Source: Gammaproteobacteria bacterium (GTDB lineage Bacteria > Pseudomonadota > Gammaproteobacteria > S012-40). From it: a stretch of 64,000 nt of DNA. Where the stretch lies: NCBI GenBank assembly GCA_029884425.1, contig JAOUHV010000011.1:1-64000 (forward strand), given 5' to 3'. The notes beneath the pieces are model-generated. The model was not told the origin of the DNA and searched no databases. It worked only from the letters and a program-made list of their open reading frames with translations. Both the position numbers and the translations under genes were made by a program. Of this stretch, positions 1,854 through 25,962 are shown piece after piece (position 1 is the first letter of the stretch; every line of letters begins with the position of its first letter).

Positions 1854-1870
1854 CCGTATGATTTATTGAT

Positions 1871-3322: not shown

Positions 3323-3323
3323 T

Positions 3324-4246: not shown

Positions 4247-4251
4247 TATTC

Positions 4252-4713: not shown

Positions 4714-4745
4714 TATTTTCTGAGTTTCTTTGGGGGAGAACTTTC

Positions 4746-7740: not shown

Positions 7741-7742
7741 AA

Positions 7743-9062
7743 ATGGCTATGTTTTGGTTTTGGGCCGCCTTGTTTGTGGTATTGGCTCTGGTGTTTGTGT
7801 TGCCGCCTTTGTTGCGCAAGGGAAAAGGTGAGGATGAAGTGCCAGTGGGCGTGGATCAGCGCGCACTGACCTTGGAGGTCTATCGTGACCAGTTTACCGA
7901 ACTGGAAAATGATCTGAAGATTGGCACGATCAGTCAGGATCAATACGAGAAAGCCAAGCAGGACATCGAAAAGAATATGTTGGCCGACGTGGGCATGCTG
8001 GAGAAAAATGCGCAGCACCAGGCGAAAGCCTCCGCAAAGCTTGCCAATATTGCGGCTGGCGTGATCGCTCTGGCGGTGCCGGTAGTGGGCGTTTCGTTGT
8101 ACATGAGCTGGGGCGCTGGTGAGGCCGGACTGGATCCGTCGTCCGCTACACCACAAGTAGCTGCCGCCGAGCACAATGAGGTCAATATTGAAGCACTGGT
8201 TGAGCAGTTGCACGAACGTTTAAAAGCTCAGCCTGACGATGGTGAGGGCTGGTACATGCTGGCGCGCACCTATCAGTACATGCGTCGTTTTGACGAAGCC
8301 GTTGAAGCCTTTAAGCGAGCGGTGGAGCTGGGTGGAAGCAATAGCCCTGACGTGTTGGCAACTTATGCTGACGCCATTGCGATGGCGAGCGATCGTACGT
8401 TGACTCCCGAGTCGGTTGCGCTGTTGAAACAGGCGCTGCAATTGGATCCATTCCATGGGCAGTCGTTGTGGTTGATGGGAACAGCGTCGTACCAGAATTC
8501 CGATTTTAAAGGTGCGCTGGAGTACTGGACGCGCTTGCTCAACGTGCTGCAGCCTGGCAGTCAGGATCACACGCAGATTTTGGCGAACATTAATGAAGTT
8601 CGCTCCAATCTGGGTATGGCGCCGATGGCGGCACCTATGGTTGGTGGGCCCATGATGGGCGCAGGTCCGGCGATGGCACAGCAGGGCAGTGCGGCACCGG
8701 CGGCGAATGCCGGTCCAGGAGCTGTTATCAAAGGCAAGGTCAGTTTGAGCAGCAAGCTGGCAGGCAAGGTGAGCCCTGAGGATACAGTGTTCGTATTTGC
8801 CCGTGCGGTTGATGGTCCACGGATGCCGTTGGCGATTGTTCGTGCCCAAGTGAAAGATTTGCCGATGAGCTTTGAGCTGAGTGACGCGATGGCCATGAAC
8901 CCCAACATGACCCTGTCCAGTGTGGACAAGGTGATTGTCGGTGCGCGAGTTTCCAAAACCGGCAACGCGATGCCGCAGCCAGGTGACAAGCAAGGTCTGA
9001 GCGGTGAAATCACCGTGGGTGACAAGGCAAGCATAACACTGGTGATTGATTCTGAAATCTAG
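7743..9062 (+). CDS. ccmI: Cytochrome c maturation TPR protein CcmI (CycH)
   Basis: Apocytochrome chaperone of the heme lyase complex. The 439-residue protein starts with a membrane span and a cytoplasmic segment, then a second span at about 95-115, then TPR repeats in the periplasm (about 140-290, e.g. GEGWYMLARTYQYMRRFDEAVEAF). A Met/Ala/Gly/Pro-rich linker (about 295-330) leads to a beta-rich C-terminal domain. It lies two bases after ccmH and ends the operon before a strong terminator. The low-complexity linker is more hydrophobic than usual but is probably only a spacer. Confidence 0.93.
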   Translation: MAMFWFWAALFVVLALVFVLPPLLRKGKGEDEVPVGVDQRALTLEVYRDQFTELENDLKIGTISQDQYEKAKQDIEKNMLADVGMLEKNAQHQAKASAKLANIAAGVIALAVPVVGVSLYMSWGAGEAGLDPSSATPQVAAAEHNEVNIEALVEQLHERLKAQPDDGEGWYMLARTYQYMRRFDEAVEAFKRAVELGGSNSPDVLATYADAIAMASDRTLTPESVALLKQALQLDPFHGQSLWLMGTASYQNSDFKGALEYWTRLLNVLQPGSQDHTQILANINEVRSNLGMAPMAAPMVGGPMMGAGPAMAQQGSAAPAANAGPGAVIKGKVSLSSKLAGKVSPEDTVFVFARAVDGPRMPLAIVRAQVKDLPMSFELSDAMAMNPNMTLSSVDKVIVGARVSKTGNAMPQPGDKQGLSGEITVGDKASITLVIDSEI

Positions 9063-9460: not shown

Positions 9461-9895
9461 ATGCATAAGATGGCAGAAATTGCAGCCCAGGAAGCTGAAC
9501 GCATGCGCAGTAACGCGGCGCAACGAGCTTCCAAACGCAAGGAAGATTTTTTGGGTGCACGGGTGCCCAAAGAGCTGAAGGAACGGGTCATGATGCGTGC
9601 CAGCGAGTTAGGTATTCCAGTTTCGCTACTGATTCGCAAAGTTCTGGAGGACGCATTCGCCGAACCGGGTCAAGCCTTGGCGCAAATGGCTGATCCTATC
9701 AAATGCAGTGCGGCTGACAGGCAGACTCGTTTGTCGTCGGTACTTGGCTGGAAATCGCTGGAGCTGAATCGCTCTCACGCTTGTGACTGTTGTGGGCAGG
9801 TATTACAGGCAGGGAATAACGTAGTCATGGGCGTCACGCCGGATAACGGCATGATGATAATTTGTGGTGCATGCAAGGAACAATTAAAAGCTTAG
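9461..9895 (+). CDS. Ribbon-helix-helix-like protein with C-terminal Cys cluster (possible regulator)
   Basis: Unknown 144-residue protein. Residues 30-66 (FLGARVPKELKERVMMRASE onward) look like a ribbon-helix-helix DNA-binding fold: a short beta strand, then two helices. A basic, Ala/Arg-rich N-terminal helix precedes it. The C-terminal part has two Cys groups, CDCC (108-111) and CGAC (135-138), which suggest a small zinc ribbon. The strong ribosome site TAGGAGG lies eight bases before ATG 9461. Its 3' end overlaps the next gene by about 25 bases, so it is likely co-transcribed with the exporter genes and may regulate them, possibly in response to metal or redox state. This function is inferred from fold and position only. 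Confidence 0.6.
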   Translation: MHKMAEIAAQEAERMRSNAAQRASKRKEDFLGARVPKELKERVMMRASELGIPVSLLIRKVLEDAFAEPGQALAQMADPIKCSAADRQTRLSSVLGWKSLELNRSHACDCCGQVLQAGNNVVMGVTPDNGMMIICGACKEQLKA

Positions 9896-11364
9896 CGCGA
9901 AGTCTGGCCGCCCTCTTGTTGATCGTTCTGACTGGCTGGAGTGTCCCGGCGACGGCTCAGGAAGATCTGGATCAGGGGATGCAGTCGGATCTTGCTGGCT
10001 CGTTGGATGAAAAATCCACTTCGGGATTTTCCTGGGGTGGCTATTTGCGCAACGAAACGGCTTACCGCTATGACGAACCACGAACCTTCACCAAAATTCG
10101 CAACACATTTTCGCTGAATTTAGCGTACGATTTTGGGAGCTCTGCTCGATTGTATGCCGCAGGTTGGTATTATTACGACCACGTCTACGACCTCTTTAAT
10201 TACGAAACCATTGCTGCGCGTACCCGGCGTGATGAAAAGGAAACTCTGGTCTTTATCGAAACACTCAAACACGAAAAAGACTCTGATGTTACCGATCTGC
10301 GAGAACTCTACCTGGATCTATATTTGCCCAGCATGGACGTACGCATTGGCCGCCAGTTTGTGGTGTGGGGGGTGATAGAAGGGATTCGTGTGGTTGATGA
10401 AATTAACCCGATGGATTTTCGTGAGTTGATTTTGCCCGAATTGCTGGATTATCGAATCCCATTGTGGACGCTGAAGGTGGATTATTACCTCGAACAGGGA
10501 GCGCTGCAATTTTTGTATATTCCTGATCTCACTTTCCACAAACCTGCGCCTGGTGGCTCTGAGTGGGAATTGTTCCAGGTGCTTGATAAAACCACCCTGC
10601 CAGAAAATGGCCGACCGGAGTTTGCGGAGTATGGCCTGAGGTGGAGTGGCAATGTTTGGGACGCGGATGTGTCCCTAAGTTATTTTTATACTTGGGATGA
10701 CTATCCCACCACCTTTCGTGTCATTTCCGATGCGGATGTGCAAACCGCAGATCCCACCACTGAACTGGCAATTTTGCCAACTTACAAGCGCATGGCGATG
10801 TATGGCAGCACGCTGACCAAGGAAATCGGTGGTAATATCGTCAAAGCGGAGCTCGTGTATGCCACGGGCAAGTATTTTGCCGTGGTGGATGAAGATCAAG
10901 ACGGCGATGGTTTCCTGGACGCCGATGGCGAGATAGAGCGACCGCACTGGCGTTGGGCGTTGGGATATGACTTTAGCTGGGGTGGAGCGGATTTTTCGCC
11001 TGCGATCGCCCAGTGGATCATCACAAATTACAATAATTACATTTTGACCGACGAAGTTGATACGACGTTTAATTTGTTTATTCGTAAGCCCATGCAGCGT
11101 TATTCATCAGTCTTTACCCTGCTGGGTATTTACTTGTGGAATTTCGAAGAAGTGTATTTGAAGCCAAAATTTACCTTTAATCTGACGAACAATTTTCAGA
11201 TTATGGCAGGTGTGGATTATTTTGCCGGAATACGTACCCAGTTTGGTCGTGCGGCAGATACGACTGCCGAAGGTGGTTTGATAGACTTGGAACAACGAGC
11301 ACAATTTCTCGGCAATTTCAGAGACAACAACCGAATATTCGTCGAGTTTAAATACAGTTTTTAA
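9871..11364 (+). CDS. DUF1302-like outer-membrane beta-barrel protein
   Basis: Probable outer-membrane barrel of 497 residues. ATG 9871 (MQGTIKSLARS) gives a signal peptide ending near VPATAQ; a TTG three codons upstream is also possible. The body is rich in alternating aromatic strands and contains the segment RIGRQFVVWG followed by the INPMDFREL stretch, which resembles DUF1302 proteins. It ends in an aromatic residue (FKYSF), the usual C-terminal signal for BAM insertion. DUF1302 proteins often sit beside RND/MMPL exporters, as here (the next gene starts 39 bases on). The usual DUF1329 or LolA-like partner is absent. Substrate unknown. Confidence 0.7.
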   Translation: MQGTIKSLARSLAALLLIVLTGWSVPATAQEDLDQGMQSDLAGSLDEKSTSGFSWGGYLRNETAYRYDEPRTFTKIRNTFSLNLAYDFGSSARLYAAGWYYYDHVYDLFNYETIAARTRRDEKETLVFIETLKHEKDSDVTDLRELYLDLYLPSMDVRIGRQFVVWGVIEGIRVVDEINPMDFRELILPELLDYRIPLWTLKVDYYLEQGALQFLYIPDLTFHKPAPGGSEWELFQVLDKTTLPENGRPEFAEYGLRWSGNVWDADVSLSYFYTWDDYPTTFRVISDADVQTADPTTELAILPTYKRMAMYGSTLTKEIGGNIVKAELVYATGKYFAVVDEDQDGDGFLDADGEIERPHWRWALGYDFSWGGADFSPAIAQWIITNYNNYILTDEVDTTFNLFIRKPMQRYSSVFTLLGIYLWNFEEVYLKPKFTFNLTNNFQIMAGVDYFAGIRTQFGRAADTTAEGGLIDLEQRAQFLGNFRDNNRIFVEFKYSF

Positions 11365-11403: not shown

Positions 11404-14010
11404 ATGATTAAGGCGATATCCTCCATTGGTGTGAAGTTTCCCAAGACCGTGGTGTTGGTGATGCTGGCGGTGACCGCCTTCATGCTGATGCAATTGAGTC
11501 AGGGATTGCGTTGGGAGACTGACGCCAGGGTGTATTTGCCCAAAGGTCATCCTGCGATTATTTACGACGAAAAAATCGATGACGAATTTGGTGTTAAAGA
11601 CAACATCATCATCGGTATCGTGAATGATGACACTATTTACAACCAGGACACACTGGAACGGGTTAAGCGCATCGCGGAGAAAATACGCGGCCTTGATGGG
11701 GTGGCAGCACAGCGCGATGTGGACATTGCTTCCATGGCCACGGCGATTTATTTCACCGGGGACGATGAGTCCATTGCCGGTGTACCGTTGATGCCAGATG
11801 TGCCCAAAAATGACGAAGAAATGGCTGCACTGAAAAAACGAGTCACGGAAAACGCTGATCTGTTTGTGGGCAATATTGTGTCCGCTGACGGCAAGGCAAC
11901 CATGATTCGCGCCAAGCTCAAAGAAGGTATGGTCAATCGTTACATGACCTACTTCCAGATTAAAGGCATCCTGGCGGTGGAAGGTGGAACCAGCGCAGGT
12001 TGGGATTCCGCATCTTGGGGCGGCGGTGATGGCGACTGGAAAAAATGGCAAAAGACCGCCGAGTCGTCGGATGCTGCCAATGATCAATTGCAACAAAAAC
12101 AGGCCGATCAACAATCGCAATGGCAAGCCGGTGCGGGTGGTCAGTGGGATGCCGCCGGTGATGCCGGTGGTGGCGCCAATCCGTGGTGGCCGGGCAATCA
12201 GTCAGACAATTCTTCGACTGAAACTGAGACCGCTCCAGCGTTCAAGCCGGCACCAGAGACCGAGCATTTTTATCTGGCAGGTCGTCCCGTTATTGAAGTG
12301 ACCTCAGGCATTTACGCGCTGGATGACATGAAAATCATGATTCCAGCGATCGTTATTGTCATGGCACTGGTGTTGTTGGTGATATTCCGCAGTTTTCGCG
12401 GTGTGCTGATGCCGCTGATGGTGATGAGCTTTGCCATTATCTGGACTGGCGGATTGATGGTGTTGCTGGATGTGCCCTTGTACACCATTTCGACTATGCT
12501 GCCGGTTATTCTTGTGGCGGTGGGAATTGGCGATTCGGTGCATCTGATGAGTCAATACTACGATAGTGCCACACGCAATATTCATCGCAGCAGCAAAGAA
12601 ATTGTTGCTGAAACCATGGATAATCTAGGTGCGCCGCTAATTGCGACGACAGCGACTACCGCTATTGGTTTCCTGGCTTTGCTGTTTGCGGAAATGCCTC
12701 CGTTCAAAGTTTTTGCCGCATTTGCCATTTTGGGTATTGTGTTCTCGTGGTTGATTACGGTGACGTTGCTTCCGGCAATGCTGAGCCTGCTTAAGCCGCA
12801 TGTAGCGAATTATTACGCCAAGAAGCGAGCACAACGTGTCTACGAAGACAGCAGTCGTCTGGGATGGCTATTGGTGCGTTTGGGAGTGTTTATTAACGCC
12901 CGCACGAAACTGGTGATGGCATCATTGGTGGTGGTGATTATTGCTGCTGCTGTGGGTGCAAGTCAGTTGTTTGTCAACTCCAGTTGGCTCAGTGATTTCC
13001 GCGCAGAAAGTGAAATCAGTCAAGCAACAGCAATGATGAATGACAAGTTCAATGGCACTACATTCCTTCATGTGGTTATCGAAGCGGACGAACGTGACAC
13101 GCTAAAACGCCCTGATGTGTTAAAGGCGATGGAAGAATTGCAGAAATACGCTGAAACATTGCCAAAAGTGGGCGGTTCATTGTCGGTGGTAGATTATCTC
13201 AAAAACATGAACCTGAATCTGCATTCCGCTGATCAGCAGTACAATAGATTGCCTGATACCCAAGCGCAAATTGCTGAATTTATGTTTTTGCTGGCCTTGT
13301 CTGGTCGCCCTGAGCAATTGGATGAAGTGGTAGATTACAACTTCAAAAAAGGCTTGATCAGTATCGCCATCAAAACAGATTACACAAAAGATTTGAAGTT
13401 CGTGGTTGACTCGGTGGATGCGTTTGTGAAGCAACACTTCCAGGGATTGGGGGTGCGCGTAAATTATGCGGGGTCGGCGAATAATTCGTACGTGTGGGGG
13501 CATCTGCTGATTGGTAGCCAGACCGACTCCATTGTTATTTCTAAACTGGGAATTATTTTGGCCGCGGGATTGATTATGATGTCGTTGGTCGCCGGCATTT
13601 TCGTGGTGATGCCGGTTGTATTGAGCACATTGCTGGTGGCCGGTATTTGCGGATTTTTTGCAATTCCGCTGGATGTGTCTACTGCGCTGGCTGCAGGTAT
13701 TGCCATCGGTGTGGGTGTGGACTACGCGATACACTATATTTTCCGCTATCGGCGGGAACGTAAAAGCGGGAAAAACCACGACGAGGCGACCGCCGAGACG
13801 TTGCGGACCGCTGGCCGCACAATTGTGCTGAATGCGACGGTGGTGGCCGCTGGTTTTGCCGTGCTGTTTTTCTCACACTTTCCACCGCACGTAAAATTGG
13901 GATATTTCGTATCTGCCTACATGGTGATTAGCTGTTTGGTTGCCATCGTGGTATTGCCGGCGTTGTTTGCTTTCTTCCGGCCAAAATTTGTGGAGAAAGT
14001 GGCTGACTGA
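11404..14010 (+). CDS. RND/MMPL-family exporter with Trp-rich periplasmic insert
   Basis: Predicted inner-membrane exporter of the RND superfamily (MMPL/COG1033 type), 868 residues. The layout is TM1 (about 13-32), a large periplasmic loop, TM2-6 (from about 309), a second loop (from about 520), then TM7-12. The segment GIGDSVHLMSQYYDS and its repeat VGVDYAIHYIFRYRRE carry the polar membrane residues typical of proton-driven members. The first loop contains an unusual low-complexity insert at residues 194-279, rich in Trp, Gln, Asp, Ala and Gly. Its stop overlaps the following gene (TGATG). Neighbouring barrel proteins suggest transport of a hydrophobic molecule or lipid between the membranes; the substrate is not known. 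Confidence 0.82.
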   Translation: MIKAISSIGVKFPKTVVLVMLAVTAFMLMQLSQGLRWETDARVYLPKGHPAIIYDEKIDDEFGVKDNIIIGIVNDDTIYNQDTLERVKRIAEKIRGLDGVAAQRDVDIASMATAIYFTGDDESIAGVPLMPDVPKNDEEMAALKKRVTENADLFVGNIVSADGKATMIRAKLKEGMVNRYMTYFQIKGILAVEGGTSAGWDSASWGGGDGDWKKWQKTAESSDAANDQLQQKQADQQSQWQAGAGGQWDAAGDAGGGANPWWPGNQSDNSSTETETAPAFKPAPETEHFYLAGRPVIEVTSGIYALDDMKIMIPAIVIVMALVLLVIFRSFRGVLMPLMVMSFAIIWTGGLMVLLDVPLYTISTMLPVILVAVGIGDSVHLMSQYYDSATRNIHRSSKEIVAETMDNLGAPLIATTATTAIGFLALLFAEMPPFKVFAAFAILGIVFSWLITVTLLPAMLSLLKPHVANYYAKKRAQRVYEDSSRLGWLLVRLGVFINARTKLVMASLVVVIIAAAVGASQLFVNSSWLSDFRAESEISQATAMMNDKFNGTTFLHVVIEADERDTLKRPDVLKAMEELQKYAETLPKVGGSLSVVDYLKNMNLNLHSADQQYNRLPDTQAQIAEFMFLLALSGRPEQLDEVVDYNFKKGLISIAIKTDYTKDLKFVVDSVDAFVKQHFQGLGVRVNYAGSANNSYVWGHLLIGSQTDSIVISKLGIILAAGLIMMSLVAGIFVVMPVVLSTLLVAGICGFFAIPLDVSTALAAGIAIGVGVDYAIHYIFRYRRERKSGKNHDEATAETLRTAGRTIVLNATVVAAGFAVLFFSHFPPHVKLGYFVSAYMVISCLVAIVVLPALFAFFRPKFVEKVAD
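11983..12240 (+). repeat. Trp/Gln-rich low-complexity insert in the RND loop
   Basis: Codes for residues 194-279 of the exporter. Trp occurs at 200, 205, 212, 215, 240, 248, 261 and 262 in a Gln/Asp/Ala/Gly/Ser background (for example DWKKWQKTAESSDAAND). By the predicted topology it lies in the periplasm. Its composition closely matches the C-terminal tail of the ABC ATPase at 18576-19028. Confidence 0.8.
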
Positions 14011-14924: not shown

Positions 14925-17735
14925 ATGAAAGCCGCAAATGTCATTAAATTTACTTTGCTTTGGTTGCTAACTGTACTTGTGTTTAGTGCGATGTCCTCTC
15001 CAGCGATGGCATTGGATGAAAAGGGCGGGAAGTTATTGGCACAAGCGCGCGAATTTCTACAAAAAAATAATATTGCTGAGGCAAAGCGGGCATTGGAGTT
15101 GGTGCTGCAAAACGATTCGCAAACAGCCGAAGCGTATTTTTTATTAGGTCATGTTTATCTGCGCAGCAATGATGCGGCAAGTTCTGTTGCCAATTTCCAA
15201 AAGGCAGTTAGCCTGGATAGCAAAAATGCGGTTTATAGCCTTGGCTTGGGCAATGTATACGAGCGTGCCGGTCGCCCGGATTTGGCGATCAAAGAATATC
15301 AGCGGTTAGTGGATAGTGGTTCCCGGCATCCTGCCGTGAAGGCGGTGGAAAAAAATCTGGCGATTATGACGGCGCAATCTTTGATGTCACGTGGTGAGTA
15401 TAACGCGGCGTTGCTGATACTTAATGGTTTGTTGCTGGAGTATCCAGATGAAGCCTCCATTCTGTATATGATCGGTTCGGTCTATATGCAGTTAAATCGC
15501 ATGGAAGATGCAGAGCAAACTTATTTGAAGCTGCTGGCAGATAAACCGGACAGTGTGCTGGTTAATATGAGTTTGGCCAGTGTCTATGAGCGAACGGGGA
15601 AACCTGAGCAGGCGAGAAAATATTACTGGAAGGTTGTTGTCTTAGACAAATCACCTGAGTCAACGCGAGATGCGCGGATTCGCTATGGTATTGTCAGTGG
15701 TAATTTCTATCTTGAACAGCAGCGCTTCGAGGAAGCGATTGCAGCCTATGATGATGTGCAGAAAATAGCTCCTGACAATCCCGAACCTATCTTGAAAAAG
15801 GGCATTGCGTATATGCAAATTCGCAAGCCTGAAAAAGCCGAACAATTGTTTGCAATATTGGTTAAAAAGAACGAAAAAGATTTTACTTCCCGTCTGCAAT
15901 TGGCTAATGCGCTGGGGATGCAGCAAAAGAATAAAGAAGCCAAGGAACAACTGGAATACATTATCAAAAATGATGATGGGCGTTTTCGTGATCAGGCCAA
16001 GGTGCGACTGAATCTTATTCATACCCAGATTGCTGACGAAGCTCTGCGCTCTGGGAATGTGGCGGAAGGATTGGCTGAATATCAAAAGGCGCTGGAATAT
16101 TTTTCTGGAAACGTTGATGCGGCCTTTAAAGCAGGCACTATTCTCATGCGACAAGGTCGTCTGGAAGAGGCGCAACGTGAATTCGAAACGGTGTTGACAC
16201 ACATGCCGGACGCATTGCCGGCGAGAATGACCTTGGCGCAAATCTATGATCAGCGCGGTTTGTATTCGCAGGCCGCAGAGCAATATGAGCGTGTGATACA
16301 GATTGCGCCGGATACCAATGAAGCAAAATTTGCCAAGCAACGCTGGCCTATCTCGAAGGCGCGTGGATTATGGGCTGAACAGCGATTGCTGGAGGCAGAG
16401 GATGTGCTGGCCCAGGAGTTGGAAGAAAATTCGGGCAATACCGAGGCCTATATTTATTTGGGGATTATTCAATCTGCGCGTGGTAATGCCCGTGATGCGG
16501 TTGCGTCGTACCAGAAGGTGATGCAGTTGCAACCAGAAAACCAAGGGATACGCCTGCAGTTAGGAACGGCGTATGAGCAGTTGGGTATGGATGAAATGGC
16601 AGCCACGGAATATCGCAAGATTATATTTGCTGGCGCAACTGAAGTGGTTCTTAGTCAAGCCAAGGCGCGTTTGAGCGACGTGGAGTCGCGGCTCAATGGT
16701 TTCTCTGAAAGTATGAGTTATAGCTTTCAGTATGACGATAATCTGAATATGAATGACGAAAATCCAGTGGAAGAACTGCGTTCAGATTTGGCTTTCAACT
16801 TATTTTTTAATTACAAATTTTCAGATACTCACGCGGTTCGATTGGGGTGGAGTCCCACCTATTCAACTTATCATTTTAGTCAGTCCGATTATTTAAATTC
16901 CAATTTGAGTGCGGGTTGGACGGTGGGGATTCCTGGAGACAGTTATGCGATTGTCTATTCGAGGCAAGACCAACAGGGCTTGATGAATGAAACAACTGTC
17001 AGTAAGAGCCAGTCGCTGAGTCTAGCCAGAGCGCAACGTGTCGCGATGCCCGCGTTGTTCGGTTTAACGCCAAAGCGTTATGAGGGTGAGGATGGCGTGC
17101 CTACCTCGTTGCAGAGTACGCTGAATGCGCGAACCATTGAATCGTTTGGCGGAGTGCCGCTGGAATCATTATTGGTTGCCATGGGATTTAACATGGGGCA
17201 GTTGCTGCTGGGAGATGTGCAGGTCACTGTTAGCTACAACCTGACGGTTTACCGTAACGTGCATAACAAGCAAGTGATTAACGAAGCACGGGTCAGGGAT
17301 CCAGAGACAAATCAGATCACTGACACGCCGGTAAGAACCTTGTTTTATGATTCTCGTGATTATGAGTATAACAGTCATACCTTGGGTATGAATTTGCAGC
17401 GTGCATTGGCGGCGGGTTTATCCGGCAGCGTGGGGGGGAATGTGACATACACTGGTTACGTCAATCCTGATTCGGGTGCGAAAACACGTCGCCTGCTCGA
17501 TACGCGTAACAATTATACTGTGAGTGGTGAAGCCGGTTTGTTTTATGCGTTGACGCGAGGGGTGAATTTATTTGCCAACGTTAGCGTGACCCGCAATGAC
17601 TCAGATATGCCGATTGCAACGCTGTATAACAATGACAAGGATGAAACCGAACAAGCGATTGCCAGTTATCAAAGCACTTCGTTGGGGGATTATAAGCGGT
17701 TGTCTGGAACGCTGGGGATGAACATGGCGTTTTGA
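14925..17735 (+). CDS. Large TPR protein with C-terminal outer-membrane barrel
   Basis: A 936-residue exported protein. The signal peptide (cleavage near PAMA-LDE) is followed by many TPR-like repeats over about residues 30-590 (for example TAEAYFLLGHVYLRSNDAAS). From about 595 (SYSFQYDDNLNMNDEN) to the end the sequence is beta-rich and finishes in LGMNMAF, indicating a C-terminal barrel. TPR-plus-barrel architecture is known from PgaA (polysaccharide export) and SLAM (surface lipoprotein export); I cannot say it belongs to either. It is the last gene of the 9461-17735 unit and may gather periplasmic cargo for the exporter pathway. Confidence 0.72.
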   Translation: MKAANVIKFTLLWLLTVLVFSAMSSPAMALDEKGGKLLAQAREFLQKNNIAEAKRALELVLQNDSQTAEAYFLLGHVYLRSNDAASSVANFQKAVSLDSKNAVYSLGLGNVYERAGRPDLAIKEYQRLVDSGSRHPAVKAVEKNLAIMTAQSLMSRGEYNAALLILNGLLLEYPDEASILYMIGSVYMQLNRMEDAEQTYLKLLADKPDSVLVNMSLASVYERTGKPEQARKYYWKVVVLDKSPESTRDARIRYGIVSGNFYLEQQRFEEAIAAYDDVQKIAPDNPEPILKKGIAYMQIRKPEKAEQLFAILVKKNEKDFTSRLQLANALGMQQKNKEAKEQLEYIIKNDDGRFRDQAKVRLNLIHTQIADEALRSGNVAEGLAEYQKALEYFSGNVDAAFKAGTILMRQGRLEEAQREFETVLTHMPDALPARMTLAQIYDQRGLYSQAAEQYERVIQIAPDTNEAKFAKQRWPISKARGLWAEQRLLEAEDVLAQELEENSGNTEAYIYLGIIQSARGNARDAVASYQKVMQLQPENQGIRLQLGTAYEQLGMDEMAATEYRKIIFAGATEVVLSQAKARLSDVESRLNGFSESMSYSFQYDDNLNMNDENPVEELRSDLAFNLFFNYKFSDTHAVRLGWSPTYSTYHFSQSDYLNSNLSAGWTVGIPGDSYAIVYSRQDQQGLMNETTVSKSQSLSLARAQRVAMPALFGLTPKRYEGEDGVPTSLQSTLNARTIESFGGVPLESLLVAMGFNMGQLLLGDVQVTVSYNLTVYRNVHNKQVINEARVRDPETNQITDTPVRTLFYDSRDYEYNSHTLGMNLQRALAAGLSGSVGGNVTYTGYVNPDSGAKTRRLLDTRNNYTVSGEAGLFYALTRGVNLFANVSVTRNDSDMPIATLYNNDKDETEQAIASYQSTSLGDYKRLSGTLGMNMAF

Positions 17736-17795: not shown

Positions 17796-18557
17796 TTAAT
17801 CCCGCAATGCCTTGAAGGCAGAAATCGCCCAGGCCAATGTGCCAGCGGCAAACACCAGCATAATCGCCAGACCCTGGCCATACGCAGCCAGATTAACTTC
17901 ACCGACAAAAATTGCGCGGATCGCACCCACCGCATATTCAATCGGATTGATAATCGCGATGTATTGTATCCACTGTGGCATGTATTGTTCGGGCACCATG
18001 GCGCTGGAAAAAAACATCAGTGGCAGTGTCATGATGTTGCCCAGAACAACCAGTGGCTCTTCGCGTTGCAGCATGATGGCCAGACCATTGGAAATGCTGG
18101 CGAATGCGATGCCCATCAATAACACGATGATCATCACCAGTGAAACGTAAAGCGGATTCCAGGTAGTGCTGGCGCCCATCATCCACGCAGCAATCAATAC
18201 GATTAACGCCTGCACAACCACTTGAACCGCTGCGTGCAGTACGCGACTGAGTACGATGGAGGCGCGAGAGGCCGGCGAGGCAAGCATTTTGTCGACAGTG
18301 CCGGCGCTGATTTCGCGCAACAAGCTGACGCCTGCCCAGGACGAGCCGAACAATACCGTCATGATCAATACGCCTGGCAGGAAATAGTCGATGTACGATT
18401 CGGCGGGAAAGCCAGGCAGCTGAGCAAAGTGGCCAAACAGTGAGCCAAAAATGAACAGCCAAATCAGTGGTTGGATCAATGCAAACAATGACCACAGCGG
18501 CATGCGCGCTGAAATGATCATGTATTTTTTAAACAGGTACCAGGTATCTGAAATCAT
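17796..18557 (-). CDS. ABC-2 type transporter permease (DrrB/NodJ-like)
   Basis: Membrane subunit of an ABC-2 exporter, 253 residues with six membrane spans. It carries the ABC-2 family segment around DYFLPGVLIMTVLFGSSWAG and a late NPIEYAVGAIRAIFVGE stretch seen in drug, polysaccharide and lipid exporters. It is preceded, 15 bases upstream on the same strand, by its ATPase. It faces the TPR/RND unit tail to tail. Substrate unknown. Confidence 0.88.
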   Translation of the reverse strand: MISDTWYLFKKYMIISARMPLWSLFALIQPLIWLFIFGSLFGHFAQLPGFPAESYIDYFLPGVLIMTVLFGSSWAGVSLLREISAGTVDKMLASPASRASIVLSRVLHAAVQVVVQALIVLIAAWMMGASTTWNPLYVSLVMIIVLLMGIAFASISNGLAIMLQREEPLVVLGNIMTLPLMFFSSAMVPEQYMPQWIQYIAIINPIEYAVGAIRAIFVGEVNLAAYGQGLAIMLVFAAGTLAWAISAFKALRD

Positions 18558-18572
18558 TTTTTATCCTACAAC

Positions 18573-19985
18573 TTAATCTTTTTTGGATGACCAGTCTTTT
18601 GACCAGTTGTCTTTATTGGGCCACTTCTTTTCACCATCAGATTTGGTTGCGGCGGCATCATCGGATTGTTGCCACTGTTGCCAGTTTTTTTCGCCCGCAT
18701 TCGGCCAGGTCTGATTGTTAGATTGGTCCTCAGTGGTTGTTGGCGCTTCTTTCGCTGACGGGGTTTGCCACTGTTGCCAATGGTTGTCGCCAGTTTGTGT
18801 GGACGTGTCAGCAGCTTTGTTTTGCCAAGCATTATCAGTGGTGGCTGGCGCGGCGTCATGCGTCTGTTTCTGTTGCTGCCATTTTTGCCATTCCTGATTG
18901 GTTTCGCGCCAATCGGTGTTGGTGGCACTGGTCTCTGCGGTGCTGTCAGTGGTTTCTGCAGCCTGGTTTTGCCATTGCTTGGCCCATTTGCCACCGCCTT
19001 TGCCGGCCCATTTTTCCCACCACTTGTCGCCGCTGTCCTCGGTTTCCGTGTTGATGCTGTTGCCGGTGTATTTGATGAATACGTCGTCCAGCGTGGGGCG
19101 CGAAAAACTGATTTGAGCTACCTTGGCATTTTGTGCGGTAGCGATGGTCATTACTTGCGGAATAGCCTGCGCGCCGTTGTCGACATACAAATGCAGTTTG
19201 TCATTTTCCCAGGTGGTGCCTTTGATGAATGGGGCTTGTTTCAATGCCCAGGTGAGTCCTTCTTCGTGGCCATTGTCGCCCTCCATGGACAAGCTGATGA
19301 TGTCACCGCCGATGGATGATTTTAATGCTTCGGGCGTATCAATAATTTTGATCTGGCCTTGATTGATAATCGCGACGCGATGCGACAGCTTGTCCGCTTC
19401 CTCGAGGTAGTGAGTGGTCAACAGAATGGTTAAACCAAGTTCGCGATTGAGCTTTTCGATGTATTTCCACAGGCTCTGCCGACTCTTGGTGTCCAGGCCC
19501 AAGGTCGGTTCATCGAGAAACAGTAATTTGGGACTGTGTAATAGTGCGGTGGCGATGTCCAGCTTGCGACGCATACCGCCAGAATAACCAACTACCTGTT
19601 GATCGAGTACCTCGGTTAATTCGAAGTAACCGGCAAGTTCGGTAATGCGCTGGGCGATGTCCTTGCCGGACATGCGGTACAAGCGTCCGTGAAGTTCCAT
19701 GTTCTCGCGGCCAGTCAGGAAATAGTCAACGCCGGTTTCCTGGGCAACATAACCGATGGAACGACGAACCTGATCGGCATCGGTGTCAACATCAAAACCT
19801 GCAACGATGACTTTGCCCTCGTCAAAACCTGCAAGCGTGGTGAGTATGCGGATGGTGGTGCTTTTTCCTGCGCCGTTTGGACCGAGCAACGCCAGAATTT
19901 CACCGTCCTTGACTTCCATACTGAGCTGGTTGACGGCCTGCGTGCCCGACGCGTAGGTTTTGGTGAGTCCCTGAATGTTGATCAT
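18573..19985 (-). CDS. ABC-2 transporter ATPase with Trp/Gln-rich C-terminal tail
   Basis: DrrA-type ATP-binding subunit for the permease that follows it. Residues 1-310 are a normal exporter ATPase: Walker A GPNGAGKST (35-43), signature YSGGMRRKLD (134-143), Walker B LLFLDEP (154-160), H-loop LTTHYLEEAD (189-198), then a DrrA-like accessory domain ending in FSRPTLDDVFIKYTG. Residues 320-470 are an added low-complexity tail with 17 Trp in about 150 residues. Typical family members stop near 310-330, so the tail is an extension. It starts from ATG 19985 behind a good -10 box. Cargo is unknown. Confidence 0.9.
   Translation of the reverse strand: MINIQGLTKTYASGTQAVNQLSMEVKDGEILALLGPNGAGKSTTIRILTTLAGFDEGKVIVAGFDVDTDADQVRRSIGYVAQETGVDYFLTGRENMELHGRLYRMSGKDIAQRITELAGYFELTEVLDQQVVGYSGGMRRKLDIATALLHSPKLLFLDEPTLGLDTKSRQSLWKYIEKLNRELGLTILLTTHYLEEADKLSHRVAIINQGQIKIIDTPEALKSSIGGDIISLSMEGDNGHEEGLTWALKQAPFIKGTTWENDKLHLYVDNGAQAIPQVMTIATAQNAKVAQISFSRPTLDDVFIKYTGNSINTETEDSGDKWWEKWAGKGGGKWAKQWQNQAAETTDSTAETSATNTDWRETNQEWQKWQQQKQTHDAAPATTDNAWQNKAADTSTQTGDNHWQQWQTPSAKEAPTTTEDQSNNQTWPNAGEKNWQQWQQSDDAAATKSDGEKKWPNKDNWSKDWSSKKD
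18576..19028 (-). repeat. Imperfect WxxW/WQQWQ repeats in the ABC ATPase tail
   Basis: Encodes residues 320-470. Four imperfect units begin at about W334, W366, W403 and W435 (spacing 32, 37, 32). Most have WQ(K/Q)WQ at the start and a second Trp 20-25 residues later, often followed by QN or PN (for example NAWQNK, QTWPNA, KKWPNK). The linker is Asp/Thr/Ala/Ser/Lys-rich. No known domain is recognised. Confidence 0.8.
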
Positions 19986-20116: not shown

Positions 20117-20202
20117 AGCTGGTTATCAAAACCAGAGGGGCGACGCGTCAGGCTCCGACATAAAAAGGTATAAAAACGGTGCACGGTAGGCTGCGTATAA
20201 AT

Positions 20203-21363
20203 ATGTCAGGCATGGTTCGCTTAGGGTTGAGCGTTGTCATTGGTTTGAGTGGCTTGCTGGCCTTCAATACCTTGCTCAAAGCGGATGGCTGGGCGGGCAG
20301 TAAGGCACCGGCTCAGTACGATAACGAACTTTCAGCCGATGGCCTTCGCCAAGGCGGCATTGCCAACACGCGACACAATCTCACCATTTCCTATAACTCC
20401 GGCCGTGTGAATATGGAGGGCGTGCGCAACGATTACTACGAAATTTGCGTGTATTGCCATACGCCGCATGGTGCCAATTCTACTGTTGCTGCGCCGCTGT
20501 GGAATCGGACAGTGCAATCGTCGGTTTACACGGTTTTTCCTCGCGCTGAAACGATGCTGGGTCAGACGGTTACTCAGCCAGGGCCGAATTCTTTGACGTG
20601 CTTGTCCTGTCACGACGGCGTGACAGCGATTGATTCTGTTATCAATATGCCGACGCGCTTGGAAGGCTCTTTCCGTGCGGGCTATGCGTCGAGCCAGGAA
20701 AATTCAGTTAGCCGCGCCTTCCTTGATGCATGGGCAAGCGAGGGCAATGAACTGCTGGCTAAAGAAGGTAAGTTTACTTCTGCGGCGCAGCTGGGGCCTG
20801 CGGGATCAGGTTCGCAGAATCACTTTTCTTTGGGGGGAGCCTCGGATGGCTGTGTGGCCTGTCACCGTGATGGGGGCGGAACGCAGGCAGCGCCTGATTT
20901 TAGCGCGTTTGTGATCGGCGCCGACGGTATTCCCGCACTAAATACTGGCGTGCGGGGGATTGCGGCAGGAAACGGCAGCCTGAACGATGATCACCCGATT
21001 GGCGTGCGTTATCCGACCGACTTTTCAGCGGGGGTGGATTTTAATCCGCCGACCGTGGAAAAGGGCAGGATCGCGTTTTTTGATCGAGATGGCGATCGCC
21101 ACGCCGATGCCAACGAAGTGCGTCTGTACAACAGTGGTGACGGTTACGAAGTGGAATGTGCTTCCTGCCATGATCCGCATGGCGTTCCCATGAACTACGA
21201 CAATCATGGCGCACCGACCGACGGCGCCAAGATGATTCCCAGTTTCTTGCGGGTGGGCGCGATGGGCGTGGCCACTGCGAGTAATGCCGTCGGAGGTGTG
21301 CCGACCAACATCTTGGGTGGCAACAGCGGCAGTGAACTGTGCCTGACCTGTCATGTGAAATGA
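20203..21363 (+). CDS. Pentaheme c-type cytochrome
   Basis: Exported multiheme cytochrome of about 386 residues. ATG 20203 is preferred because it begins a normal signal peptide (MSGMVRLGLSVVIGLSG) and has GGTAGG upstream; an in-frame GTG at 20179 would add eight residues. Five CXXCH motifs are visible: CVYCH, CLSCH, CVACH, CASCH and CLTCH. The first, CVYCHTPHG, is typical of the doubled-CXXCH type. The NDDHPIGV and CASCHDPHG segments match parts of the cytochrome at the window start, suggesting related function or duplication. It has its own promoter and terminator, so it is monocistronic. Partner unknown. Confidence 0.9.
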   Translation: MSGMVRLGLSVVIGLSGLLAFNTLLKADGWAGSKAPAQYDNELSADGLRQGGIANTRHNLTISYNSGRVNMEGVRNDYYEICVYCHTPHGANSTVAAPLWNRTVQSSVYTVFPRAETMLGQTVTQPGPNSLTCLSCHDGVTAIDSVINMPTRLEGSFRAGYASSQENSVSRAFLDAWASEGNELLAKEGKFTSAAQLGPAGSGSQNHFSLGGASDGCVACHRDGGGTQAAPDFSAFVIGADGIPALNTGVRGIAAGNGSLNDDHPIGVRYPTDFSAGVDFNPPTVEKGRIAFFDRDGDRHADANEVRLYNSGDGYEVECASCHDPHGVPMNYDNHGAPTDGAKMIPSFLRVGAMGVATASNAVGGVPTNILGGNSGSELCLTCHVK

Positions 21364-21407: not shown

Positions 21408-22154
21408 TTATGCGTGGCTACACACCGGACAATTGGGGTCTTTGGGGAGCTTGAGTGTACGCCACTCCATGTAGTAAGCATCCAGCAGCAGTAGGCGACC
21501 ACTCAGGTCCTGGCCTATGCCCATCAGCACCTTGAGTGCCTCGGTGGCCTGCATCGCACCGATAATGCCGACCGCAGGTGCCAGCACGCCGTTGAGGGAG
21601 CAGGTTTCACCCAGCTCACCAGCCTCTTTGTACAGGCAGTGATAACAGGGACCGGTACCCTTGTCGGCACGGAACACGGTAATTTGGCCTTCCATGCGAA
21701 TCACTGAACCTGAAACCAGCGGCTTCTTTTCTTCAACGCACATGCGATTTAAGGCAAAGCGCGAGGTGAAATTGTCGGTAGTGTCGATGATGACGTCTGC
21801 CAAGTGGACTTGCTCGCGTAATGCATCGTCTTCCAGGCGTTTGCTGATGGTGGTGATCTGAATTTCAGGATTCAGCGCCTGCAGCGTTTCTTTGGCGGAA
21901 TCCACCTTGAGTTTGCCAATGTCAGCATCGGTGTGCAGGATTTGTCGCTGCAGATTGCTGATTTCGACGGTGTCAAAATCGCTGATGACCAGATGGCCGA
22001 CGCCGCTGCTGGCCAGATACATGGCCACAGGCGAGCCAAGACCGCCGGCGCCTAGGATTAATGCTCGGGATTTCAATAGTTTATCCTGGCCGTCGTAATC
22101 CACTTGCGGCAGCATGATATGACGGTTGTAACGTTTGAGTTGTTCGTCGTTCAT
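21408..22154 (-). CDS. moeB: MoeB/ThiF-family adenylyltransferase (molybdopterin synthase activator)
   Basis: Activates the C-terminal Gly-Gly of a small sulfur carrier (MoaD, or ThiS) by adenylation. The 248-residue protein has the nucleotide motif GAGGLGSPVAMYLASSG, the IDTTDNFTSRF segment, the catalytic-loop region around GETCSLNGVLAPAVG, and zinc Cys pairs (CYHC and CPVC). Proximity to moaD favours MoeB over ThiF, though one enzyme may serve both. It lies three bases after the Kelch gene, so the two are co-transcribed. Confidence 0.88.
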   Translation of the reverse strand: MNDEQLKRYNRHIMLPQVDYDGQDKLLKSRALILGAGGLGSPVAMYLASSGVGHLVISDFDTVEISNLQRQILHTDADIGKLKVDSAKETLQALNPEIQITTISKRLEDDALREQVHLADVIIDTTDNFTSRFALNRMCVEEKKPLVSGSVIRMEGQITVFRADKGTGPCYHCLYKEAGELGETCSLNGVLAPAVGIIGAMQATEALKVLMGIGQDLSGRLLLLDAYYMEWRTLKLPKDPNCPVCSHA

Positions 22155-22157
22155 TCT

Positions 22158-23087
22158 TCAATTCCATGTGTAAGCAAAAACGGTGTTCACGGGTGTGCGT
22201 CCGTCATCGGCCCATCCGCCCACCAGGTAGATGGTGTTGTCCATCATGGCGACGCCCATGGCTGCACGGGCGGCGGGCATGGGGGGGAGCTCGCGCCAGA
22301 TATTGCTGCCGGCGGGGCAGAGCGAGGCGCGGTTGTGGATGTTTTCGGTGCTGTAGCCGCCAAAGAAAAACAGCGTATCACCGAGGTTGCACATGCCTTG
22401 GCCTGCGGCCGGCCAGGGTAGTTTTAGCTGGCTATCCTGTGTCCATTGGCGCGAGGGTTTGTCGTAAGTTTCGATGAAATCGAAGTTATTAAAGCCGTCG
22501 GGCGTGAAGGCAACGCCGCCGGCGACCATGATGGCGTTATGGCGCATAAACCCCGAAGCCGCAAAGCGGGGAGTAGGTAGGGAGGGTAATACTTCCCACT
22601 GGGCCATGCCGGGTTTCCAGCGTTCACAAAAGTCGAATCCAGGGTCGGTTTTGGGGCCACCTAGGCAGGCGTCGGGATGGTGGCCGGCCAGGATATAGAT
22701 GTAGCCCTCGTCCAGAACTGCGGCCGGGTAGTCGTGGGGCTGCTGCATGTCAGGGCCGGTAGTCCAGCGATTGGTTGCCGGGTCATAAATTTCCACGGTG
22801 CGTAAAAACTGAAAATTGCCATCAGGCTTTTTGAAGCCGCCACCCACGATGTAGATTTTGTCGCCAATGAGGAATCCCGCAGTGCCTGAACGCTTGGTTG
22901 GCATGGGGGCCAGTTCCTGCCAGCTTTGGTCCGCAGGGTTAAAGCAGACCACAGAATCCAGGCTTTTGAACTGGGGGCCGCCGCCGCCAAAAATGTACAG
23001 TTTGCCTTGGTATGGGATGACCGGAGCATGTGAGCGAGCCAGCTCCAGCGCTGGCAGTTCACGCCATTGCCCGTTTAACATGTTCAT
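22158..23087 (-). CDS. Kelch-repeat protein
   Basis: A 309-residue predicted beta-propeller. Repeats carry the Kelch pattern: paired Gly (GGG, GG) followed by Trp and Pro (for example KLYIFGGG, KIYIVGGGF, YLVGGWADD). About five to six blades are seen. No signal peptide is evident, so it is probably cytoplasmic. The start may be ATG 23087 or the Met two codons later. It is unusual as the gene directly upstream of moeB; it may be a scaffold, but no function is assigned. Confidence 0.8.
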   Translation of the reverse strand: MNMLNGQWRELPALELARSHAPVIPYQGKLYIFGGGGPQFKSLDSVVCFNPADQSWQELAPMPTKRSGTAGFLIGDKIYIVGGGFKKPDGNFQFLRTVEIYDPATNRWTTGPDMQQPHDYPAAVLDEGYIYILAGHHPDACLGGPKTDPGFDFCERWKPGMAQWEVLPSLPTPRFAASGFMRHNAIMVAGGVAFTPDGFNNFDFIETYDKPSRQWTQDSQLKLPWPAAGQGMCNLGDTLFFFGGYSTENIHNRASLCPAGSNIWRELPPMPAARAAMGVAMMDNTIYLVGGWADDGRTPVNTVFAYTWN

Positions 23088-23482
23088 AATGCTGCTTTAA
23101 TCCTTCCTGATATATATTTTTAGTGTGGATATTTGCCCGTATTTGGCTGGTTGTGTCAAGTTGAACTCAGCTCAGGGTGGTTTGGATTTAAAAAAAACAT
23201 ACTCTGAACGATATTAGGGGTATATACCGCGGGGCCTGATGATGCACGAATAGGCTCGGATTTGCGGGTGGAGTGCAAGATGTTGGAAATTTGACGCTAC
23301 CTTGTCTTTAAGTGCTTTAAGTTACTACCGTTTTTGGCAATTGTGCATATGTAAAAGCCGCTAATTTACTGTATGATGATGCCTTCAAATCTATCCAGAA
23401 AACCTGGTGCTCTACTTGGTTATTTGGCTAAGCATAAAATTTGTTAGGATAGTCGCAGGCTTAAGCTAGCAGGCTTATTTCG
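23088..23482. other. Divergent intergenic region upstream of moaA
   Basis: No gene is seen. The 395 bases separate the minus-strand Kelch gene from moaA and must hold both promoters. Short complementary arms (TGCAC and GTGCA near 23243-23277) could form a loose hairpin, but I could not match it to the Moco riboswitch or any other known leader. No convincing hexamer pair is placed. Confidence 0.4.
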
Positions 23483-24598
23483 ATGAAGTCCGGGGGTAGT
23501 GGAGTGCTAATCAACAACGATCAGTTTAAGGGGAAAGACGCATTTGCAGGGAGCAAGGATGATAAAGCAGTCCCCACAAGCAAATATGCGCCGTTGCAGG
23601 ATACCTTTGGTCGTACTTTCGACTATGTTCGCATTGCAATCACAGAAAAGTGCAATTTGCGTTGCACCTACTGTATGCCAGAAGAAGGCGTCGATTTTAA
23701 AAACGGCGAACAAATTCTAAGCACCGACGAGATTTTGCGCGTCGTGGGCATTTTGGCGCAAATGGGCGTGAAGAAAGTTCGATTTACCGGTGGTGAGCCA
23801 CTGGTGCGCAAGGACATCGTCGAGCTGGTACGCGGCACGGCGGCTACGCCGGGTATCAAAGGCGTGCACATGACCACCAACGGCATTATCTTCCCCAAAT
23901 ACGCAGAACAACTGCTTGAGGCTGGATTGACAGGCGTAAACATCAGCCTGGATACCTTGAATCCTGCCAAATTTAAAGAAATCACTCGCCGCGAAGGCGA
24001 AGATAAAGTGCTGGAAAGCATTCGCATTGCTCAGTCCCTTGCGTTCCCCCGTGTTAAGGTGAACGTAGTGTTGATGCGCGGCTTTAATGACACGGAGTTT
24101 TTTGATTTTACTGAAATGACCCGTGACCAGCGCGTGACGGTGCGTTTTATCGAGTTCATGCCGTTTGATGCCGAGCAGATTTGGGAATCGGGTGAGCACT
24201 TCCTCAGCGCCGAGACCATGGTGAAGCAGCTGAAAGAGCGCTATCCCACCATCGAGTTGGCATCAGGAACGCGTACTGAGCATCACATCTATCAAGTGCC
24301 TGGCTATGCCGGCAAAATCGCAATTATCCCCGCATTTACTCGCAGCTTGTGTGGTAACTGTTCGCGCATTCGTTTGACTGCAGACGGTGGTGTGCGTAAT
24401 TGCCTGTATTCCGATCAGGAATACAGCATTCGCAGCCTGTTACGCAGTGGTTGTACGGACGAGGAGATTGTTGCGACTTTCCGTCAAGCATTCCGCGAAA
24501 AAGCCAAAGATGGTTTCGAATCCAAGAAGCGTTCTGCGATGCAGGTATCGACTGTGAAGTTTGCCGGTCGGACCAGTATGACGCAGATCGGTGGCTAA
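23483..24598 (+). CDS. moaA: GTP 3',8-cyclase MoaA (molybdenum cofactor)
   Basis: Radical SAM enzyme that, with MoaC, turns GTP into cyclic pyranopterin monophosphate. The 371-residue product has the N-terminal 4Fe-4S motif CNLRCTYC (Cys 57, 61, 64), the GGEPLVRKD segment, and a second cluster in the C-terminal part (LCGNCSRIRL then a Cys in RNCLYS). It ends in the Gly-Gly that the family needs. The N-terminus is about 40 residues longer than usual before DTFGRTFDYVRI; a GTG at 23504 is an alternative start. It is followed by a hairpin and then moaCDE. Confidence 0.96.
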   Translation: MKSGGSGVLINNDQFKGKDAFAGSKDDKAVPTSKYAPLQDTFGRTFDYVRIAITEKCNLRCTYCMPEEGVDFKNGEQILSTDEILRVVGILAQMGVKKVRFTGGEPLVRKDIVELVRGTAATPGIKGVHMTTNGIIFPKYAEQLLEAGLTGVNISLDTLNPAKFKEITRREGEDKVLESIRIAQSLAFPRVKVNVVLMRGFNDTEFFDFTEMTRDQRVTVRFIEFMPFDAEQIWESGEHFLSAETMVKQLKERYPTIELASGTRTEHHIYQVPGYAGKIAIIPAFTRSLCGNCSRIRLTADGGVRNCLYSDQEYSIRSLLRSGCTDEEIVATFRQAFREKAKDGFESKKRSAMQVSTVKFAGRTSMTQIGG

Positions 24599-24611
24599 CG
24601 ACCGAAACGAG

Positions 24612-24638
24612 AGGGGTGTTCGCGAGATCACCCCTTTT
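24612..24638 (+). terminator. Probable terminator or attenuator after moaA
   Basis: AGGGGTG (24612-24618) pairs with CACCCCT (24629-24635) across a ten-base loop, followed by TTTT. It is shorter and weaker than the others in this window, so read-through into moaC is possible. Confidence 0.6.
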
Positions 24639-24764
24639 GATCTTGAATCCGAGTTTTTCGTTGTGTAAAAATCCCCTCGGTATTTTAGGTAAAAGTCACG
24701 TAACCCGTTGCTGTTTGAGTGGTGTGAGCCAGGCTTTCACCACAGAACTTATGAGAGAGAATAC

Positions 24765-25259
24765 ATGGACAATAAGTTGACCCATTTCAATGCCTCCGGT
24801 GAAGCGCACATGGTGGATGTGGGCATGAAAGATATCACGACGCGCGAAGCGGTGACCGAAGGCCGTATTTACATGGAGCCTGACACCTTGAAGCGCATTA
24901 TGGCGGGCGATCACAAAAAGGGCGACGTGCTGGGTATTGCGCGCACGGCGGGTATCATGGGGGCCAAGCGCACGCCTGATTTGGTGCCATTGTGTCATCC
25001 CATTTTGATTACCAATGTTGAGCTGGATTTAACGCCAGAGCCCGAAACTAACAGTGTTTATTGCCGCACGACGGTGCGCTGTAATGGTCAGACCGGCGTT
25101 GAAATGGAAGCGTTGTGCGCCACTCAGGTTGCGTTGTTGACGATTTATGACATGTGCAAAGCGGTTGATCGCGGTATGCGGATTACCGATGTACAACTCA
25201 CTGCCAAATCCGGTGGCAAGTCCGGTACTTGGACTCGGGAAGCAGTGCGGGGAAAGTAA
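24765..25259 (+). CDS. moaC: Cyclic pyranopterin monophosphate synthase MoaC
   Basis: Completes cPMP formation with MoaA. The 164-residue protein shows the family segments [15 protein letters not shown] and the GVEMEALC block, plus the late KSGGKSG loop. ATG 24765 was chosen because it gives the standard MoaC N-terminus ([19 protein letters not shown]) with a GAGAGA ribosome site. moaD follows one base after the stop. Confidence 0.96.
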
Positions 25260-25260
25260 G

Positions 25261-25491
25261 ATGAAAGTTAGAGTGAAATTTTTTGCCAGCATGCGTGATT
25301 CCATGGGCCGCGCCGATGACACAGTGGAGTTTTCGGGCAAGGCCACGGTGGCGGATGTGTGGGCCAAAGTGTCCAAGGATCCGTTGCCTGAGAACACCTT
25401 GATTGCGGTCAACATGGAATACACCAGTGTGGGCGAATCGCTAAAAGATGGCGACGAGGTTGCGTTTTTTCCTCCCGTCACTGGAGGTTAA
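25261..25491 (+). CDS. moaD: Molybdopterin synthase small subunit MoaD
   Basis: Ubiquitin-like sulfur carrier of molybdopterin synthase, 76 residues, ending in Gly-Gly (PPVTGG), which is activated by MoeB and thiocarboxylated. The body matches the family (VRVKFFASMRD, DGDEVAFFPPV). The GGAGGT encoding the final Gly-Gly also forms the ribosome site for moaE, tying the two subunits together. Confidence 0.95.
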   Translation: MKVRVKFFASMRDSMGRADDTVEFSGKATVADVWAKVSKDPLPENTLIAVNMEYTSVGESLKDGDEVAFFPPVTGG

Positions 25492-25494
25492 TAC

Positions 25495-25962
25495 ATGAAG
25501 GTGGTGGTGCAAGAGGGCATTTTCGATCCTTGGAAAGAGATCGCCGATTATCAGGCGACCTACCTGCCTAAGGGCAAGCACGGCGCAACGGCGGTGTTTA
25601 TCGGTACCATGCGCGACTTCAATGAGGGAGTGGACGGTATTCGTGGCATGTACCTGGATCACTATCCCGGCATGACTGAAAAGCACATTGAGCGTGTCTG
25701 CCAGGAAGCCCTGAACGAATGGGATGTGATGGACGCGTTTGTCGTTCATCGCGTGGGTGCGATTGAGCCGGATGAGCCGATTGTGCTGGTTGCCGTCTGG
25801 TCACGTCACCGTGCGATGGCGTTTGACGCCTGTCGTTTTATCATCAATGACCTGAAGCATCGCGCTCCTTTCTGGAAGCGGGAAACGCGCAAGGGCGGCG
25901 AGGAAACGTGGGTCGAAGGTAATACTGCTGATGAGCGTGCAGCGAAAATCAGCAAGAAGTAG
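25495..25962 (+). CDS. moaE: Molybdopterin synthase catalytic subunit MoaE
   Basis: Large subunit that inserts two sulfurs into cPMP using MoaD thiocarboxylate. The 155-residue protein has the family segments VFIGTMRDFNEG, LDHYPGMTEKHIE, VHRVGAI and the active-site region FWKRET (Lys). ATG 25495 lies three bases after moaD, with GGAGG at 25483-25487. Last gene of the moaCDE operon. Confidence 0.96.
   Translation: MKVVVQEGIFDPWKEIADYQATYLPKGKHGATAVFIGTMRDFNEGVDGIRGMYLDHYPGMTEKHIERVCQEALNEWDVMDAFVVHRVGAIEPDEPIVLVAVWSRHRAMAFDACRFIINDLKHRAPFWKRETRKGGEETWVEGNTADERAAKISKK

Follow-up and report, generated by a model that had tools for sequence, protein, structure and literature searches.

The ABC exporter ATPase of this gammaproteobacterial genome ends in a long tryptophan-rich tail, predicted to be disordered, which recurs in two bacterial phyla, and Trp-rich segments with common motifs are present in a periplasmic loop of the RND transporter encoded in the same block. 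The reading that we tentatively prefer, with rather less than even confidence, is that the tail is a conserved, disordered segment of multivalent Trp motifs, and that the ABC exporter and the RND pump serve one envelope export route for amphiphilic, lipid-like molecules. The window, meaning the whole analyzed stretch of 64,000 nucleotides (GenBank assembly GCA_029884425.1, contig JAOUHV010000011.1), contains both genes and their neighbors (Table 1).

Table 1. Features of the export block in the window.
Feature	Position	Strand	Remarks
Small protein, 144 aa	9461..9895	+	weak CopG match below cut-off; two CxxC pairs
DUF1302 outer-membrane-type protein (PF06980)	9862..11364	+	kept in 28 loci, beside RND
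MMPL/HAE3-like RND transporter, 868 aa	11404..14010	+	Trp-rich insertion in first periplasmic loop
RND Trp-rich loop, predicted disordered	12001..12214	+	~aa 200-270; 8 Trp; before FYLAGRPV strand; pLDDT 20-30
Conserved protein, 303 aa	14010..14921	+	no family match; outer-membrane-like (inferred from sequence)
TPR protein	14925..17735	+	C-terminal region barrel-like (inferred)
ABC-2 permease partner, 253 aa, DrrB-like	17796..18557	-	adjoins ATPase in nearly all loci examined
DrrA-type ABC exporter ATPase with tail, 470 aa	18573..19985	-	TIGR01188, 330 bits, over cut-off
ATPase C-terminal tail, Trp-rich, predicted disordered	18576..19028	-	aa 320-470; 17 Trp; pLDDT <50 over 314-470
Near-invariant proximal core of the tail, WWEKWAGKGGGKWAKQW / KWWEKWAGKGGGKWAKQWQN	18966..19025	-	~aa 321-340

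With 330.2 bits against a curated cut-off of 312.45, the ATPase falls in the DrrA subfamily (TIGR01188), and it possesses the DrrA1-3_C domain (PF13732, 35.8 bits against 27.4, residues 217-307). Because the first match stops at residue 308 and the second at 307, the residues beyond ~310 are extra, as a preliminary description of this DNA had supposed. DrrA proteins usually end near residue 310-330, a length that is not strictly defining, and the present one continues for 151 residues more; tail-less control DrrA proteins measure ~305-370 aa and have no Trp-rich end. The nearest solved relatives are TM_1403 (4yer), the ABCA lipid exporters and NosF.

The tail occupies the last 151 residues of the protein, and its Trp residues, exactly the 17 that had been counted before, lie at positions 322, 323, 326, 334, 338, 359, 366, 369, 387, 403, 406, 427, 435, 438, 455, 461 and 465. 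This number is far above chance: in 2000 dinucleotide shuffles, in-frame TGG codons numbered 3.1 on average and 10 at most. In an AlphaFold2 model based on a nine-sequence alignment, the pLDDT is below 50 for residues 314-470, against values near 90 for the preceding domain. The preliminary description had divided the tail into four imperfect units of 32-37 residues with regular Trp spacing, most of them starting with WQ(K/Q)WQ. WQxWQ is indeed found at 366, 403 and 435, but the fourth start, at 334, is only WAKQWQ; the steps are 32, 37 and 32 residues. Over lags of 26-41, the autocorrelation of the Trp residues does not exceed that of shuffled sequence (P ~0.89), and Tandem Repeats Finder detected no tandem array in the DNA of the tail, so that regular repeat units are not supported. 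In Pfam, the window tail has no match up to E 10, and neither Pfam nor the PDB links it to a known family of Trp-rich repeats. Among the choline-binding and cell-wall-binding Trp repeats of Pfam, the best score was 11.5 bits (E 0.37, cut-off 27), for the tail of a single Nitrospirota locus (L087).

Comparison between tails reveals what is not visible in a single one. The conserved part is the proximal core, with the near-invariant consensus WWxxWAGKGGGxxW, while the distal motifs drift, in a low-complexity region that cannot be aligned from one family to another. The core carries a charge of +4 in the window and the remainder one of -8; the majority of the tails are net acidic. WWxxWAGK-GG is present in all 24 orthologues of the class, and WWxxW is retained by most Nitrospirota tails; in the four most diverged of these, it is swapped for variants such as WGWGKKW and WGAWGG.

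A first scan of genome contigs gave eight close relatives, six gammaproteobacterial and two from Nitrospirota, with 45-61% overall identity and a Trp-rich tail in every case; the permease is well conserved in the relatives compared for it (61-81% identity). Of 369 genomes drawn evenly from the class, 24 contain an ATPase orthologue (E 1e-125 or better), each with a tail containing 7-12% Trp; the next match falls to E 1e-61 and is tail-less. A second sample of 246 Nitrospirota genomes, searched with the query from L007, contains 18 orthologues, clearly apart from other DrrA proteins and Trp-rich in every tail that was read; lower-scoring DrrA proteins of this phylum (L076, L077) have no tail at their end. 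In a quick tree of the ATPase domain alone, in which some control branches are long, the 40 tailed rows lie on one side of a branch (SH-aLRT 94), the 22 tail-less controls lie outside, and one change is sufficient. By this tree, the tailed ATPases are one clade and the tail is of single origin.

The 40 distinct tails are 72-332 residues long, with a nearly constant share of Trp (9.3 +/- 1.5%) and a Trp number that follows their length (r = 0.89). The 37 pairs that could be aligned, scored by identity only and not independent of each other, show a retention of 0.69 for Trp and of 0.47 for the remaining residues. The spacing is restricted: WxW occurs in one of several hundred tail gaps, where ~51 are expected, and also once in the RND loops. 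Steps of 3 and 5 are favored, and the signal at 1, 3, 4 and 8 in the tails comes partly from the conserved core. These comparisons indicate that the tail is kept by selection across two bacterial phyla, that this selection is Trp-specific and that plain drift is not the cause. The earlier argument against drift thus survives through the retention in 24 of 24 genomes, the second phylum and the preference for Trp, and not through regular spacing. A generic expansion present on many unrelated genes, which had been named as a possible refutation, was not encountered: the window's own genome contains no second copy, and a search with the tail across the 369 genomes gave one match per genome, in 18 genomes. 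Neither was the tail absent from close relatives with the same locus, where it was found in place.

The RND transporter matches the MMPL family (PF03176, 136.3 bits against a cut-off of 20.5) and has an Asp in both GxGxD-type segments. It remains below the HAE3 subfamily (TIGR00921, 243.8 bits against 351.9) and far below the HpnN hopanoid models (118.2 against 751.85 for TIGR03480, 67.9 against 1100 for NF052374). HpnN (5khn, 6wu0), Dispatched and MmpL3 are its nearest solved relatives. According to hydropathy, the insertion sits between TM1 and TM2, upstream of the conserved FYLAGRPV strand. Hydropathy and the known RND topology (PMC6394551) place this loop on the periplasmic side, hence on the membrane face opposite to that of the ATPase tail.

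An orthologue of the transporter (50-66% identity) was found in 23 of the 369 genomes, all of them within the 24 that have the tailed ATPase. The one genome with a tailed ATPase in which no RND orthologue was found, G315, is a draft, 91% complete. A Fisher test of this two-by-two table gives 1e-35, a value that ignores relatedness and is to be read only as near-perfect co-occurrence. The Trp-rich loop is present in all 23 orthologues, with 4-6 Trp per 40 residues, and absent from seven RND paralogues (26-34% identity); the other MMPL-type proteins of the window's own genome likewise lack a polar Trp-rich loop. Nitrospirota RND proteins of the same blocks have Trp-rich loops with WKKWQ or WTQEEIEAWW. 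In three of them (L078, L080, L083), the loop contains SPSPSTGEGxGGG-like stretches, which look like inserted translations of short DNA repeats. A second RND-LolA-like operon of one genome (L105, G000:C21:10000-29000) is of the ordinary kind, without Trp-rich loop, and is a useful internal control.

Tails and loops also have motifs in common. They share 27 Trp-containing 7-mers, against a mean of 0.4 and a maximum of 4 in 200 trials in which the non-Trp residues of the loops were shuffled with the Trp positions fixed; as the 27 overlap, they represent a few motif families, namely (D/P)WKKWQ, WxGNxWVNADGT and EWWAKQG. The second of these is found in the ATPase tails of four Nitrospirota loci (L087-L090) and one gammaproteobacterial locus (L171), in a gammaproteobacterial RND loop (L051) and, in a shorter form, in the loop of L003. 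A survey of the 712 ORFs in these loci found polar Trp-rich segments in 40 of the 42 labeled as ATPase, in 25 of the 30 labeled as RND and in eight of all others; the labeled proteins without such a segment include generic ABC matches, fragments at locus ends and L086, with its wider-spaced Trp. The link to the RND loop suspected in the preliminary description is thus upheld by co-occurrence, position and common motifs, and the binding or coupling role suggested there gains partial support at the sequence level.

In most gammaproteobacterial loci, the DUF1302, RND, 303-aa and TPR genes adjoin the permease-ATPase pair and face it. The Nitrospirota block contains genes for a LolA-like protein, an O-methyltransferase, a histidine phosphatase-like protein, DUF1302 and RND. 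In Nitrospirota and some gammaproteobacteria, the module has LolA_like/DUF1329 genes as neighbors; none was seen in the window block, and PF17131 genes are located on three other contigs. The 144-aa CopG-like protein, which is possibly a regulator of the module, adjoins the DUF1302 gene in several loci (L042, L047, L048, L051). No conserved cytosolic partner gene was seen beside the ATPase in all lineages.

The block is flanked by multihaem c-type cytochromes with paired CXXCH (20179-21363 and 45-1853, both on the + strand), and Ccm maturation genes are found at ~1866-9062. The 394-aa cytochrome adjoining the ATPase is kept in eight loci, the window and seven others. ThiF/MoeB-like, Kelch, moaA, moaC and moaE genes adjoin the block at 21408-25962; moaA, moaC and moaE likewise flank ATPase loci of Nitrospirota (L007, L079-L083), so that the two phyla resemble each other here. 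The cytochrome and molybdopterin neighbors occur in the window's family. Because most other gammaproteobacterial families have the module beside tsaD-like and unrelated genes, the module does not need these neighbors, and a link to the cytochrome or molybdopterin genes was rejected. Relatives of two further window genes (36183 and 38190, at 36183-39083; DXS-like and polyprenyl-synthase-like by inspection) are located near the module in L093, L094, L048 and L050. Such isoprenoid-type genes recur at some loci, not consistently, and were not retained as part of the module.

A related combination is known from Mycobacterium, where DrrABC, MmpL7 and LppX export one lipid, PDIM (PMC11539658). Both systems combine a DrrA-type ABC-2 exporter with an MMPL-type RND protein, and the modified signature has the style YSGGMRR in both. 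A like dependence of one lipid on both transporters would have indirect support from the co-occurrence of ATPase and RND in 23 of 24 genomes. The mycobacterial system has a periplasmic lipoprotein, to which the LolA-like proteins beside the module in Nitrospirota and some gammaproteobacteria may be compared. No Trp-rich tail or loop is described for it, and the DrrA of M. tuberculosis ends at residue 331; the window block has instead DUF1302 and TPR outer-membrane parts and no LolA-like gene. In AmeABCD, an HAE3 RND system for monoterpene efflux (PMC6394551), an HAE3-like RND protein is accompanied by a DUF1302 outer-membrane protein, as in the window, where PF06980 (9862-11364) and RND lie in one block, and by a LolA/DUF1329-like protein, as in part of the present loci. 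The described cassette, on the contrary, is without ABC exporter, and its RND loop is not described as Trp-rich. Wzt, of the Wzm-Wzt O-antigen exporter, also has an extension C-terminal to an ABC-2 exporter ATPase, through which it binds the substrate in the cytosol (PMC9445017). That extension is a folded carbohydrate-binding domain, unlike the window tail with its predicted disorder and lack of a Pfam match. The HpnN/MmpL3-type lipid transporters are near the window RND protein by sequence, although their curated cut-offs and that of HAE3 are not reached; relative to them, the Trp-rich loop is an added feature. The transporter families are thus already known; the open-licence papers searched contain no conserved, predicted disordered Trp-rich element shared by an ABC ATPase and an RND partner, and they describe neither a Trp-rich tail or loop on such transporters nor Trp-rich disordered segments at membranes.

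The cargo is likely an amphiphile, as most of the nearest families move lipids or other hydrophobic molecules. The inner membrane separates tail from loop, so that binding between them is unlikely, and a direct contact was set aside. As the two segments cannot easily touch, their common motifs are most simply explained by a ligand or surface common to both: each would bind the transported amphiphile itself, or the membrane or lipid surface presenting it. In the proposed mechanism, the DrrAB-like flippase would receive the amphiphile from the ATPase tail, which would collect it at the cytosolic leaflet; at the periplasmic leaflet, the RND loop would do the collecting and pass the molecule to the DUF1302 and TPR outer-membrane parts, with LolA-like carriers where present. 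The conserved Lys/Gly/Trp core would lie nearest to the nucleotide-binding domain and the membrane, with the acidic, drifting Trp repeats contributing avidity. Several observations count against this lipid route. Net acidic tails do not favor plain attraction to anionic lipids, the more than fourfold variation in tail length implies that no fixed geometry is required, and G315 has the tailed ATPase without a detected RND orthologue. Exchange by recombination could also have produced the common motif families in the two genes, or these families could have different partners.

The main rival to a common ligand is self-association within each compartment: Trp stickers on polar spacers would cluster or condense the ABC and RND complexes, or bind a Trp-recognizing scaffold, without direct contact with the cargo. 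This is unlikely, yet deserves serious consideration. The predicted disorder, spacers rich in Q/G/K/E/S/D, the scaling of Trp number with tail length and the near absence of WxW from tails and loops are all in agreement with it, and a precedent exists in McdB, where an invariant Trp of a C-terminal motif mediates binding and tracks condensate formation (PMC11321042). However, generic stickers would not need a motif as specific as the near-invariant WWxxWAGKGGG, exact 7-mers common across the membrane argue for a specific ligand, and a cytosolic partner gene conserved in all lineages was not seen beside the ATPase.

Direct coupling is the less probable of these alternatives and must be called improbable. 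Here, the tail would touch either the permease of its own exporter or the RND protein at its cytosolic face and regulate the ATPase cycle, the loop would touch DUF1302 or TPR proteins, and the likeness would result from gene conversion followed by separate use. The core directly follows the DrrA1-3_C domain, and for M. tuberculosis DrrA, folding of the extreme C-terminal tail onto the NBDs, or signaling to them, has been proposed (PMC11539658); the genes are moreover adjacent in many loci, so that exchange is possible. Against this, the distal repeats vary freely beside a well-conserved permease, and the common motifs span different genomes and phyla, not one locus alone. Neutral expansion of low-complexity sequence, in a genome with a tendency to WQ-rich repeats, is very improbable and refuted as a full account by the single copy, the lack of a tandem array, the restriction of the Trp segments to two gene families, the complete retention of the tail in the class and the preferential retention of Trp, even if the low-complexity, unalignable distal part suggests that it may explain the origin of new distal units.

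Returning to the common-ligand reading, evolution appears to single out one short, mutable element on both machines, conserved in two phyla and confined to these two proteins. A bolder form of this reading, a two-station recognition code, is doubtful, slightly more so than clustering: one set of Trp motifs, on the ABC exporter in the cytosol and on the RND pump in the periplasm, would recognize one amphiphile, or one state of the membrane, both before the flip and after it, and thereby mark the cargo for a single export route. The element bears on the coupling between ABC flippases and RND pumps of one lipid, a question that also concerns the mycobacterial PDIM route. For the module itself, WWxxWAGKGGG provides a sequence signature where both proteins would otherwise be annotated merely as generic transporters.
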